From Bacillota bacterium (lineage in GTDB: Bacteria; Bacillota; Sulfobacillia; JAJZIM01), in assembly GCA_021810565.1 (NCBI GenBank), contig JAJZIM010000013.1:1-60785 (forward strand): a stretch of 60,785 bases of DNA, in the 5' to 3' direction. The notes beneath the pieces are model-generated. The model did not search any database, had not been told where the DNA came from, and saw only the letters and a program-made list of their open reading frames with translations. Position numbers and translations under genes: made by a program. Positions 47,274 to 52,017 of this stretch are shown here, in pieces; positions within the stretch are counted from its first letter, which is position 1, and every line of letters starts with the position of its first letter.

Positions 47274-48566
47274 TTACGATGCTGTTTCGGATTGGTTAAA
47301 TGTGTGGGCTTTCAGATACAAGGCGCATTCCAGCCGCTTTCGTTGCAGGGCGCAGGCCACCGGGTCGGGGCGGGTAAGCTCCCCCGCGTCCACCGCCGTC
47401 GCGTGGCAGCCGCCGCCGCACAAAAAGCGCGCCCAGCAGCCGCGACAATCCGCCTTGGCCAAGGCGTGCGCACCGCTAAGGGACGCGGCCACCGCTGGCC
47501 GTTCGATCCCCCGCCGCACGTCCCCCAGGCGATAGGCCTCCCGCCCCACGAATTGATGGCATGGATACAGCGCTCCGTCGGGAGCCACCGCCAGGTACTG
47601 CTGGCCGGCACCGCAACCCCGCACCCGCTTGGCCAGGCAGGGGCCCTCTCCCGGATCCAGCTCGAAGTGGAAGAAGGAGAAGGGCCGCCCCTGAGCCCGC
47701 CGTTCCAGCCACAACTCGGCCAGGCGCTCGTACTCCGCCTCCGCCGCGGCGAGGTCGCCTTCCGCCAGGGACAGTCCCGTCGCCCGGTCGCCCACCGCCG
47801 GTTCCACGGAGATCCGGTCGAAGCCCAGATCGGCCAGGTGCCTGACGTCGGCGGCAAAGTCCAGGTTGTGGCGGGTGTAGGTGCCGCGCACATGATAATC
47901 TGGCCCGAGGCGCACCGCCTCCTGCAGTCGGGGGACGACCCGGTCGTAGCTGCCGCGGCCGCGCATCCGGTCGTTGACCTCCGGGCGCCCGTCCAGGCTC
48001 AGCACCAGGCTCACGCCCTCCCGCCGCAGAAAGTCCGCGGTATCCCGGTCCAGGAGCGTGCCGTTGGTGGTCAGGGTGAACCGGAACTCCTTGCCCGCCT
48101 CCTCCCCGCGCCGCCGGGCGTAGGCCAGCACTTCCCGCACCACCGGCAGGTTCAGGAGGGGCTCGCCCCCGAAAAAGTCGATCTCCAGGTGGCGCACCGC
48201 ACCGCACGAAGCCAGGAGGAAATCCACCGCCGCCCGACCCACCGCCGTCGGCATCAGTTCCCGGTGCCCGCCGAAGGATCCGCCGGCAGCGAAGCAGTAG
48301 CGGCAGTGCAGGTTGCAGTCGTGGGCCACGTTAAGGCACAGGGCCTTGACCCCGGGGGGCAGCTGGGCGAACTCCTCCGGCACCGGTGCGAAAAGGATCC
48401 CCGCCGCGGAGAGCTGCCGCAGCTCCTCGCCGGCCTCCGCCACCGCCGGGTCCGATCCCTCCCCTGGCTCTCCCAGCGCGGCCCAGGCCGCCGCATCCAA
48501 CAGATGCAGACTGCCGCTGCCCACGTCGTAGGCGAGCAGGGTGTCCTTCACCCGAAACCGGTGCAC
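47274..48566 (-). CDS. scfB: SCIFF peptide maturase (radical SAM, SPASM-type)
   Basis: 430 aa. The N-terminal VHRFRVKDTLLAYDVGSGSLHLLD domain is the SCIFF-maturase leader-binding part. The radical SAM site is C84-x3-C88-x2-C91 (AHDCNLHCRYCFA), followed by DFFGGEPLLN. The C-terminal twitch/SPASM region has many Cys (CHQF, CRGCWARFLCGGGCH, CALQ). It forms thioether links from Cys to non-alpha carbons in its precursor. GTG 48566 fits the family start (MxHKF) and has AGGAA eight bases before. An in-frame ATG at 48596 overlaps the tnpB stop. It lies 2.3 kb from scfA because of the IS607 element. Confidence 0.92.
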   Translation of the reverse strand: MHRFRVKDTLLAYDVGSGSLHLLDAAAWAALGEPGEGSDPAVAEAGEELRQLSAAGILFAPVPEEFAQLPPGVKALCLNVAHDCNLHCRYCFAAGGSFGGHRELMPTAVGRAAVDFLLASCGAVRHLEIDFFGGEPLLNLPVVREVLAYARRRGEEAGKEFRFTLTTNGTLLDRDTADFLRREGVSLVLSLDGRPEVNDRMRGRGSYDRVVPRLQEAVRLGPDYHVRGTYTRHNLDFAADVRHLADLGFDRISVEPAVGDRATGLSLAEGDLAAAEAEYERLAELWLERRAQGRPFSFFHFELDPGEGPCLAKRVRGCGAGQQYLAVAPDGALYPCHQFVGREAYRLGDVRRGIERPAVAASLSGAHALAKADCRGCWARFLCGGGCHATAVDAGELTRPDPVACALQRKRLECALYLKAHTFNQSETAS

Positions 48567-48592
48567 CTGACCGTTCCTGAAACCATGGCCAT

Positions 48593-50197
48593 TCATACCA
48601 CGCAGGCCGGGCGAACAGTTTTCCCGACCGTTTGTGCCGGGGAGTCGCGCCCCGGTGCCGCAGCAAAACCATCCCAAGGCGGGCCTTCGCCAGAGCCCGA
48701 GCCTCTGACGGGTGCCGCCGAGGATAGGGGTATCCCCCTGCCGCGGCCTCCCTCGGAGGGACACCGACCACGGGCCCTTTCGGCCCGCCGCCTCTGGGCC
48801 ACACGCCTCCAGTCGCTCCAGACGTGCTTCCCGCGATTCCTTGCAGGTAGCGGAAAGGCGGATCTGGACCGAAGACGCTCCCCAAACCTTAAACCCCGGC
48901 GGGCTATCGCCACCGCCGCCGCGCCGTGCGACGACAGCCCGTAACCCGAGGCAAACTTGACCTCGCCGATCACGCTGGTGAAGGCCGGGTTCACCTCAAT
49001 GACCTCCACGCCGTACCGGGCCGCCCGGGAGAACAGCAACTGGAAGAACTTCCGATAGGCGAAGGCCGACAGCATCCGGGCGTAGCGGGGCGATCTCTCC
49101 CGCAGGGCGGCCTTCTTCTTCCGGAAGTCCAGCTCCTCCACCACCAGGGGCTTGCCGGAAAGCCGGGCCCAGTCCACGATGTCCGCCGCGGCTTCCGCGA
49201 GGATGGCCGTCGCCCTGCCTTCGGTCTTCTTGGCCAGGTCCAGGGGAAAGGACCACTCCCCCGCGGGATTCCCGAAACGGTCGATCCCGCCCACCTCCAC
49301 GTGGGCCGGGTTGAAGTCCACCCCCAGGGCTCCCAGGCGCCGATCCGTGGTTATCTTGGCGGCCGGGCGCTCCACCGAGGCGTGCACGTACCAGGCCTCC
49401 TGGTCGTCACGCCGCAGAAAACGGTAGGTCACCGCCTCCCCGCGGCGCAAGGCGGCGTCGATCTCCGCCTGGCCGTAGGTGAACTTGACGTCCTTGACCA
49501 GGACGTGCTTTCCGAAGGCCGCCTCCAGCCCAGGCGGCACCCGCAAACGGAGCGCACCGTCCGGCATTCGGGTGCAGGTCTGGTTGCCCGCCGACTCGTC
49601 CTTGGACCCCAGACACAAAAACTGGGAGGAGCGCCGTTTGCGCCACGCCGCTTGCCAGGCGGCCAGGTCCGCGAAGCCGTTGGCGTCCCGGTGGAATTGG
49701 GCATGGAAAAGCTTCTTCCCGCCGAAGCAGAGGCGCACCCGCCCCGCCTCGTGGTCCGCCCGGGCGGCGGCAAGGCGTCGTTCCAACGTGTGCAGGCGCC
49801 GCCGCTTCTGGTGCAGGGTGAAGCGCAGCCGGTGCTGCATGGACGCCGCCTGCGCACCGCGGGCCTTCTTCTTCCGGAGCTTGGCCAGGTCCCGCTCGGC
49901 TTTCTTCACCGCTTTTTTCGCGGCGGCGATGGTGTCCTGCAGGTGGGCGATGCGGTTCTTTTGGCCCTCCCGCGCCGCCTCCACCTTGCCGTCCAGGCTG
50001 GCCCTAAGGGCGTTGAACTGCCGTGCGGTCAGACCGCAATTCCGGATGGACTCCCGCTTGCATTCCGAAAGCGCGCGGCCCCGCACGTGGTGGTCCACGA
50101 AGAGGGCGCGCTCCGCCCGACCGTACAGGGCGGCCATGGCGTCCAGGAGCGGGTAGATGCCTTTATCGGGAATTTTCGCCTGATACGTCGCCTGCAT
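48593..50197 (-). CDS. tnpB: TnpB-like RuvC nuclease of the IS607 element
   Basis: 534 aa, longer than typical TnpB (about 400). A basic coiled-coil N-terminal region (about 70-150), then a RuvC fold with Asp294 in GVDFN and Glu354/355 in VVEELDF. At the third site, where ISDra2-type TnpB has DxNAA, it reads SSHGAAAVAIARRG (Gly425). No CxxC zinc ribbon is present. It belongs to the TnpB-related group with the H.AAA..I.RR ending. TnpB proteins are RNA-guided DNA endonucleases; activity of this variant is uncertain. ATG 50197 overlaps tnpA by 35 bases. The last 70 residues are low-complexity and probably overlap the element's guide RNA. Confidence 0.82.
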   Translation of the reverse strand: MQATYQAKIPDKGIYPLLDAMAALYGRAERALFVDHHVRGRALSECKRESIRNCGLTARQFNALRASLDGKVEAAREGQKNRIAHLQDTIAAAKKAVKKAERDLAKLRKKKARGAQAASMQHRLRFTLHQKRRRLHTLERRLAAARADHEAGRVRLCFGGKKLFHAQFHRDANGFADLAAWQAAWRKRRSSQFLCLGSKDESAGNQTCTRMPDGALRLRVPPGLEAAFGKHVLVKDVKFTYGQAEIDAALRRGEAVTYRFLRRDDQEAWYVHASVERPAAKITTDRRLGALGVDFNPAHVEVGGIDRFGNPAGEWSFPLDLAKKTEGRATAILAEAAADIVDWARLSGKPLVVEELDFRKKKAALRERSPRYARMLSAFAYRKFFQLLFSRAARYGVEVIEVNPAFTSVIGEVKFASGYGLSSHGAAAVAIARRGLRFGERLRSRSAFPLPARNRGKHVWSDWRRVAQRRRAERARGRCPSEGGRGRGIPLSSAAPVRGSGSGEGPPWDGFAAAPGRDSPAQTVGKTVRPACVV

Positions 50198-50768
50198 CGC
50201 CCAAAGCCCCCTCCGCCGCGACGGCAACCGCCCGTTTGGCCCGGTTCCTGGCCGACCCGCGACCGTAAAGCCTGGCGTAGAAACTGGTCAGCACGTCGAT
50301 CATGTCCTGCACCAGGTCGTCCTTCATCTCCTCGGGATCCACCACCAGAAGCTTTCTCCCCTGGGCGGCCAGTGCCGCCTCCACGTATTCCGCGCCGAAG
50401 CGCATGAGACGGTCCCGATGTTCCACGGCCACCATGGATAGCTTGGGATCAGCCAGAAGGCGCAGCAGCTTCGGCCGGTGTCCGTTCAGACCGGACCCCA
50501 CTTCCCGCACCGTCCGGATCACGGCAATCCCCTGCGCATTGAGGTGCTCCGCCACCCGCGCGACCTGCCGGTCCAGATCCCCCGCCTGATCGGTCGAAGA
50601 CACCCGGGCGTATATGGCGGCGGTGTTCGCCGCGGGCCTGGCCTCCTTCACCAGGATGGTCCCGGTGGGCAACTGCTCGGCGGCCACCGGCAGCTTGCCG
50701 TCCCGGAACCACCGCCAGGCCGTGCGATAACTCACTCCCTGCTCTTTGGCCCACTGACTCAGCTTCAT
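50163..50768 (-). CDS. tnpA: IS607-family serine recombinase TnpA
   Basis: 201 aa. A MerR-like HTH N-terminus (MKLSQWAKEQGVSYRTAWRWFRDGKLP), then a serine-recombinase catalytic domain with the nucleophile in YARVSSTDQ (Ser57/58), REVGSGLNGHRPKL and VAVEHRDRLMRFG. It cuts and joins the circular element at GG-containing targets. The start lies within a dyad that overlaps its promoter, leaving almost no leader. Confidence 0.93.
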   Translation of the reverse strand: MKLSQWAKEQGVSYRTAWRWFRDGKLPVAAEQLPTGTILVKEARPAANTAAIYARVSSTDQAGDLDRQVARVAEHLNAQGIAVIRTVREVGSGLNGHRPKLLRLLADPKLSMVAVEHRDRLMRFGAEYVEAALAAQGRKLLVVDPEEMKDDLVQDMIDVLTSFYARLYGRGSARNRAKRAVAVAAEGALGDAGDVSGENSR

Positions 50769-50803
50769 GGTATTATTTTAATATACCATGTACAGTTTGT
50801 CAA
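50767..50803 (-). promoter_or_regulatory. tnpA promoter with overlapping dyad
   Basis: TTGACA (50798-50803), 17 bases, TAAAAT (50775-50780). An inverted repeat ATGGTAT (50767-50773) / ATACCAT (50783-50789) covers the -10 box and the start codon. It is a good candidate for self-repression by the TnpA HTH and for end recognition. Confidence 0.7.
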
Positions 50804-50861
50804 TAAAGTCGTGAGCAGTTGCCAACCCTCGGCCAAGGGCTCCCCCTCCGGTCTAGAAATG

Positions 50862-50884
50862 AAAAAGGCCCCCGACCGGGCCCC
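50862..50884 (-). terminator. Terminator after scfA
   Basis: A five-base GGCCC stem with a GC-rich loop and five T on the minus strand, 20 bases past the scfA stop. It cuts off scfA from the element downstream. Confidence 0.65.
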
Positions 50885-50903
50885 CCGTCTTACCGACCGC
50901 GCG

Positions 50904-51056
50904 CTAGCGCAACGGGGCGGGACGCTCGCAGACCTGGTTGCTCACCGTGCAGGACGTCTTGCAGGCCGACTGGCAGGAGGTCTTGCATTCCCCGCAGCCT
51001 TGGCCGGCAGTCACCGGACGACCCCGGAGCACCGTGCGAACGTGCTTTCCCTGCAT
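50904..51056 (-). CDS. scfA: SCIFF ranthipeptide precursor
   Basis: 50 aa: a leader rich in Arg/Val followed by a core with six cysteines (CGECKTSCQSACKTSC, then a TVSNQVC segment) exactly as in the SCIFF family (six cysteines in forty-five residues), the substrate of ScfB. Mature SCIFF has thioether bridges from Cys to non-alpha carbons of other residues. Its function in cells is not known, though it is nearly universal in Clostridia. ATG 51056 has AAAGGGTGG just upstream. It begins 25 bases after tRNA-Thr and has no room for its own promoter, so it is probably read with the tRNA pair. Confidence 0.93.
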   Translation of the reverse strand: MQGKHVRTVLRGRPVTAGQGCGECKTSCQSACKTSCTVSNQVCERPAPLR

Positions 51057-51081: not shown

Positions 51082-51157
51082 TGGAGCTGGCGCGGGGACT
51101 CGAACCCCGGACCTGCGGCTTACGAGGTCGCTGCTCTACCTGCTGAGCTACGCCAGC
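51082..51157 (-). tRNA. tRNA-Thr (anticodon CGT)
   Basis: 76 bases with encoded CCA. The acceptor GCTGGCG pairs with CGCCAGC; anticodon loop CTCGTAA; GGGGTTCGAGTCCCC T-arm. The anticodon stem has one A-C mismatch. Confidence 0.92.
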
Positions 51158-51166
51158 TGAAAAGTT

Positions 51167-51241
51167 TGGAGCGGGAGACGGGATTCGAACCCGCGACACT
51201 CGGCTTGGGAAGCCGATGCTCTACCACTGAACTACTCCCGC
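51167..51241 (-). tRNA. tRNA-Gly (anticodon CCC)
   Basis: 75 bases with encoded CCA. The acceptor GCGGGAG pairs with CTCCCGC; anticodon loop TTCCCAA; T-arm CGGGTTCGAATCCCG. It is first in a tRNA-Gly, tRNA-Thr, scfA unit. Confidence 0.95.
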
Positions 51242-51255
51242 CCGCTGCGGGGTGT

Positions 51256-51284
51256 ATTGTACCACATGCCGCCGCCGCCCGCAA
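51256..51284 (-). promoter_or_regulatory. Promoter of tRNA-Gly, tRNA-Thr and probably scfA
   Basis: TTGCGG (51279-51284), a 17-base spacer and TACAAT (51256-51261), 15 bases before tRNA-Gly. Confidence 0.7.
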
Positions 51285-51286
51285 GT

Positions 51287-51853
51287 TCACCGCGGCCCCG
51301 GTTCTGGTCCCGCCAATAACTCCAGGGCCTGCCGCCAGGCGGACGCCGCTTCTCGGGACGGGTCCGTCCCGGGGTCGCCCAAGGCGTGGAAATAGGCCGC
51401 AAACTGCTCCGCCAACTGCCGCGCCCGGCGCGTGCGCTCCTCCAGCAGCCGCTCCCGGCGTGCTCCGGATAGCAGGGCGAAGAGCCGATCGAAATGCTCC
51501 CGGCAAAGCGGCAACTCCGCAGGTGGCTCTCCCTCCGCCAGCCGATCCAGGCGGTAGGCAGCCCCCCGTCGCTCCTCCCGGCAGGCCGGGCACTCCGCGC
51601 GCGCCGGCTCCCGGCTCCGCCGGTCGCCCCGCAAGGCCTCCAGGCGCGCCAGCTCACTGGTCACCAGGAACTCGCAGGGGGCGTTCAGCAGCTCTCCCCC
51701 ACGCCGGCCCAGCTCCCAGGCGTGTTCCCGACAGAATCCTCCCGCCGCCAGCTCCTCCAGGGTGGCCGCCGAGGCGCGATATTCCTTCAAGAACCAACGG
51801 TAATAGGCTTCCAGCGCCTCCCGGCCCGCCCGGCACGCCATACACGAGTCCAT
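51287..51853 (-). CDS. Cys/His-rich protein (DUF6062-like)
   Basis: 188 aa, with MDSCMACRAG at the start, CREH twice and CPAC in the middle, so four Cys pairs suitable for two zinc sites, and long helices. It resembles the uncharacterised DUF6062-type zinc proteins. ATG 51853 is used. The upstream gene is divergent. No function is known. Confidence 0.6.
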   Translation of the reverse strand: MDSCMACRAGREALEAYYRWFLKEYRASAATLEELAAGGFCREHAWELGRRGGELLNAPCEFLVTSELARLEALRGDRRSREPARAECPACREERRGAAYRLDRLAEGEPPAELPLCREHFDRLFALLSGARRERLLEERTRRARQLAEQFAAYFHALGDPGTDPSREAASAWRQALELLAGPEPGPR

Positions 51854-52017
51854 CGATGATCACCTCCCAGCCGTTCCAGGAGCCATCAGCCTCCCGAGAG
51901 GCGGTTCGGCCTGGCGGCCAGGCGGTCTCCATCGCCCACCCTGATTATAGCACCGCCGGACCGGACCCGACAGGAGATTCCCCGCCGACCGCGAACTTTG
52001 CCGCGGAGGTTGATCGC

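Follow-up and report, generated by a model that had tools for sequence, protein, structure and literature searches.

An IS607-family insertion at codon 4 of the SCIFF maturase gene scfB, with the gene very likely left readable from an element-supplied start

The window, by which we mean the whole stretch of 60,785 nucleotides analysed here, contains a SCIFF precursor gene (scfA) and its radical SAM maturase gene (scfB), held apart by an IS607-family element. We consider it very likely that this element inserted at scfB codon 4 and that scfB can still be read from a start that the element provides. The insertion into scfB is a clean and fairly ordinary event of a known kind in a known system, and a search of open-licence papers found no report of insertions into SCIFF loci.

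The SCIFF locus and its arrangement in relatives

The locus and its immediate neighbourhood comprise the following features.

50904-51056, minus strand: scfA, SCIFF precursor of 50 aa with six Cys (TIGR03973 and PF13165 profile matches)
47274-48569, minus strand: scfB from its native codon 5 onward (TIGR03974), with candidate new starts at ATG 48596 and GTG 48566
50863-50886, minus strand: terminator-like hairpin 3' of scfA (hairpin prediction and comparison with relatives)
51256-51284, minus strand: putative promoter TTGCGG-17-TACAAT for a tRNA-Gly - tRNA-Thr - scfA transcript (read by eye)

The first-pass annotation had placed a SCIFF precursor at 50904-51056 and a radical SAM maturase at 47274 to about 48566, and profile searches bore out both assignments. 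The precursor scored 57.1 bits against TIGR03973 (cut-off 50) and 64.2 bits against PF13165 (cut-off 27), and its six Cys fall within about 45 residues, identifying it as a SCIFF precursor. ScfB scored 470.3 bits against TIGR03974 (cut-off 425) and retained the conserved rSAM/SPASM positions, as a SCIFF maturase does; its nearest solved structure was PDB 5wgg (E 1.7e-120), which we take to be CteB of Clostridium thermocellum. Aligned with 41 relatives, ScfB keeps the shared residue in all 63 columns on which 40 or more of them agree; of 26 additional near-invariant columns (90% agreement among relatives), it deviates at one. Moreover, the scfB frame was free of stops and frameshifts across 430 codons, and the gene bears no sign of decay. 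Genome-wide profile searches returned a single SCIFF match, the scfA of the window, and no second scfA or scfB; two other rSAM matches were considered as a second scfB and rejected as distant (32-33%). In one genome of the comparison, G045, a second SCIFF-like match (C2:117223-117300, minus strand) was seen on a contig other than the one carrying its scfA–scfB pair.

Comparison with relatives upheld the view that the two genes are normally adjacent where the element is missing. Within a panel of 61 genomes, scfB lies beside the SCIFF gene on the same contig in all 28 other SCIFF-positive genomes. Over the 73 relative loci in which both genes could be placed (two of which duplicate others), the scfA stop and the xHxF motif of the ScfB N-terminus were separated by a median of 100 nt and by at most 545 nt; the separation exceeded 300 nt in four loci, one of them spanning an assembly gap. 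These loci include that of G001, the closest relative compared and the only genome of the same order in the panel, in which scfA, a terminator, a ribosome-binding site and the N-terminal sequence MDLQIHKF lie within about 65 nt. On this comparison, adjacency of scfA and scfB is the ancestral state; it is the customary context of these genes and not a requirement of the protein family. In the window, scfB does not directly follow scfA, and adjacency is regained when the flanks of the element are joined. The locus resembles the described SCIFF system (scfA TIGR03973 and scfB TIGR03974; CteA/CteB, 5wgg) in strand, in gene order and in an intergenic terminator like that of relatives, whereas it differs in carrying a 2.26-kb element at scfB codon 4, in the loss of the native start and in the position of scfA just behind two tRNA genes.

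A terminator 3' of scfA had also been reported, and the hairpin is indeed present (50886-50863, minus strand). Among the 51 spacers of relatives that are 40 nt or longer, 39 contained a terminator-like hairpin, compared with about 3.6 expected from shuffles. Judged against these spacers, the hairpin belongs to the native spacer and was not brought by the insertion, and scfB is normally read past such a hairpin or from signals of its own. The further proposal that the terminator uncouples scfB from the scfA promoter therefore falls, because the hairpin is native and most relatives carry one, and the terminator was rejected as a cause of uncoupling.

Upstream of scfA, genes for tRNA-Gly and tRNA-Thr (51082-51241, minus strand) end 25 nt ahead of the scfA start on the same strand, and scfA may lie at the end of a transcript that begins with these tRNAs. 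The putative promoter of this transcript was not picked up by a consensus promoter scan, and a tRNA within 1.5 kb of scfA was found at none of 76 relative SCIFF loci. Further upstream, a fluoride riboswitch at 51870-51945 (minus strand; RF01734, 36.6 bits against a cut-off of 34) is directly followed by an ORF encoding a Cys-containing product of 188 aa (51287-51853, minus strand), which gave no Pfam match.

Insertion point and native start of scfB

48571-50825, minus strand: IS607-type element of about 2.26 kb (ends common to about 10 copies in the genome)
50834-50849, minus strand: stranded native scfB start, consisting of the ribosome-binding site GGAGGGGG and TTG (50836-50834) (anti-SD duplex; in frame after the join)

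The 2.3-kb split of scfA from scfB by an IS607-type tnpA–tnpB element was confirmed by matches to NF033518 and TIGR01766 and by ends taken from sibling copies. These ends were set by aligning about 10 copies or remnants within the same draft genome, among which similarity breaks off sharply at GGGTTGGCAACTGCTC on the left and after ..AGGAACGGT on the right, with unrelated flanks beyond. Elsewhere in the class, other genomes carry related elements that close with the same right end, AGGAACG[GA]T. The ends are ambiguous inside a shared GGT, at 50828/50825 and 48570/48571, so that the outermost limits are 48570-50828.

When the window flanks were joined at the shared GGT, the sequence read GGAGGGGGAGCCC TTG GCC GAG GGT CAG GTG CAC CGG TTT, which translates as MAEGQVHRF and matches the MDLQIHKF of G001; the joined frame runs into ScfB, giving 435 codons without a stop. 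The same join rule was tested on the sibling copy L003 and restored a complete 293-aa frame, with an ATG start four codons ahead of the junction. The element does separate scfA from scfB, as first annotated, but because the flank join at GGT gives MAEGQVHRF in frame, its right junction falls behind codon 4 of the scfB coding sequence rather than in the scfA–scfB spacer. Consistently with this join, GTG 48566, which had been taken as the original scfB start, is not the ancestral one; the ancestral start was TTG 50836, now beyond the element. The native ribosome-binding site forms a duplex of -10.9 kcal/mol with the anti-SD sequence, and the native start now lies 2.3 kb from the remainder of scfB. 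Loss of this ribosome-binding site and start codon is the real consequence of the insertion, and it had been missed.

The junctions show a GG site, no target duplication and no terminal inverted repeats, which is the pattern of an IS607 insertion. Elements of this family insert at a shared GG, with (G)GG preferred, and leave no target duplication (PMC6188088), and they have also been described as having a fixed base beyond the right end (PMC10711439).

The element and its sibling copies

50163-50768, minus strand: tnpA, IS607 serine transposase of 201 aa (NF033518 and PF00239)
48593-50197, minus strand: tnpB-type gene, with an open frame that reaches 50227 (TIGR01766 and NF040570)
50775-50803, minus strand: predicted element promoter TTGACA-17-TAAAAT, directed at tnpA, tnpB and scfB (11/12 consensus match)
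48571-48687, minus strand: right-end RNA (omega/reRNA) region, ending ..AGGAACGGT (conserved across the class)

The tnpA product scored 188.6 bits against NF033518 (cut-off 110) and also matched PF00239, identifying an IS607 transposase. The element shares this TnpA, the tnpA–tnpB order, GG(T) junctions without target duplication and a conserved right end with the IS607 family. In contrast to the family, a zinc ribbon, Cys pairs and the third RuvC Asp were not seen in its TnpB sequence by inspection, and His occupies the usual position of that Asp. The TNB profile gave a partial, sub-threshold match (PF07282, 20.2 vs 26.3), and no solved TnpB homologue was found by sequence search. Since there is no recognisable zinc ribbon and His stands at the third RuvC Asp position, nuclease activity of this TnpB appears doubtful. 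In all copies of the same genome that reach the region, the zinc ribbon is likewise unrecognisable and SSH[GC]AAA replaces the RuvC-III Asp motif. By analogy with known IS607 TnpB biology (PMC10711439), the right-end RNA would carry, as its predicted guide, the codons with which the displaced scfB begins. The promoter is conserved in sibling copies, and tnpA, tnpB and scfB overlap one after another, the tnpB stop overlapping ATG 48596 as ATGA.

In the draft genome the element is present about 10 times, as remnants or as more or less complete copies, and the window copy differs from its near-complete siblings by about 8-11%. The tnpB gene is frameshifted near residue 282 in L002, L003 and L005 and near residue 445 in L004 and L006, and it carries an internal deletion in L107; among the copies compared, only that of the window has both tnpA and tnpB uninterrupted. 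Selection would explain this condition, and so would recent movement of a young copy. In addition, L004 and L005 combine a different tnpA (56-67% identical) with nearly the same tnpB and right end, which suggests that transposase modules were exchanged.

In the genome, 4 of about 10 right ends, that of the window (48570) included, point at the start of a gene that runs the same way. The right end of L003 lies after codon 4 of the downstream gene, that of L006 one base ahead of the ATG of an HTH-like gene, and that of L004 close to the N-terminal end of a protein in which HCTSC looks like a heavy-metal motif. From these few cases we hypothesize that IS607 elements may prefer the G-rich ribosome-binding sites at gene starts. 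Landing in the coding direction would then follow from the asymmetry of the GG target together with the G-richness of the coding strand at ribosome-binding sites.

Probable expression of scfB after the insertion

In the most likely reading, a chance insertion left scfB usable. The IS607-family element entered a GGGT target at scfB codon 4 in an ordinary scfA–terminator–scfB locus, so that the maturase gene lost contact with its ribosome-binding site and its four opening codons. The right end of the element, open in the scfB frame, offers two candidate new starts: ATG 48596, coupled to the tnpB stop through ATGA, or GTG 48566, behind an element-derived AGGA. The former lies inside the element, in the scfB frame, with a poor SD (-1.7 kcal/mol), and the latter has the terminal AGGA of the element eight bases upstream (-5.8 kcal/mol); both are weaker than the native site (-10.9 kcal/mol). 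Transcripts of scfB would now start at the tnpA promoter or reach the gene by reading through the scfA terminator. The N-terminus of ScfB would be changed, either by loss of about five residues or by exchange of four residues for about ten that the element encodes. ScfB is thus probably still made, in an altered form, and its level is perhaps lowered; expression, start choice and a residual function of ScfB are all inferred. The intact scfB frame may mean no more than that the insertion is young. Like insertion sequences that provide a neighbour gene with signals for transcription or translation, the element has a predicted promoter and candidate starts facing scfB.

It is possible, though rather unlikely, that the insertion instead knocked out scfB, which would then be a recent pseudogene without effective translation and scfA an orphan SCIFF precursor. 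The separation of scfB from its native ribosome-binding site and start and the weaker signals of the best new starts agree with such a loss, and TnpB mRNA self-processing could cut a read-through transcript near the new scfB start; TnpB is reported to process its own mRNA into omega RNA (PMC10278001). Processing is, however, uncertain for this tnpB, in whose product no zinc ribbon can be recognised and the usual aspartate at the third RuvC position is missing. Furthermore, in-frame starts are on hand, and the 430 scfB codons without a frameshift or stop, with no conserved residue lost, argue against a knock-out.

We regard it as improbable that the element was co-opted as an expression module for scfB, in which the tnpA promoter and ATGA coupling of tnpB to scfB would drive the maturase and the need of the host for it would preserve this copy. 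The overlap of ATG 48596 with the tnpB stop, the near-consensus promoter and the uninterrupted tnpA and tnpB, seen in no other copy compared, are in line with co-option, but this is a single case and a recently moved copy would be intact too. Misjoining of contigs through the repeated element is very improbable: the element does recur in the genome and forms the end of several draft contigs, but the flanks are two halves of one scfA–scfB locus that rejoin in frame, and the window copy is about 8-11% different from its near-complete siblings.

Read as an insertion at scfB codon 4 that left the gene readable, the locus is a natural insertion resolved in good detail, and the system it interrupts is otherwise kept in Clostridia-like bacteria as two tightly linked genes. 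The strain could reveal whether ScfB can function with a new N-terminus and whether the SCIFF system depends on the adjacency of scfA and scfB.
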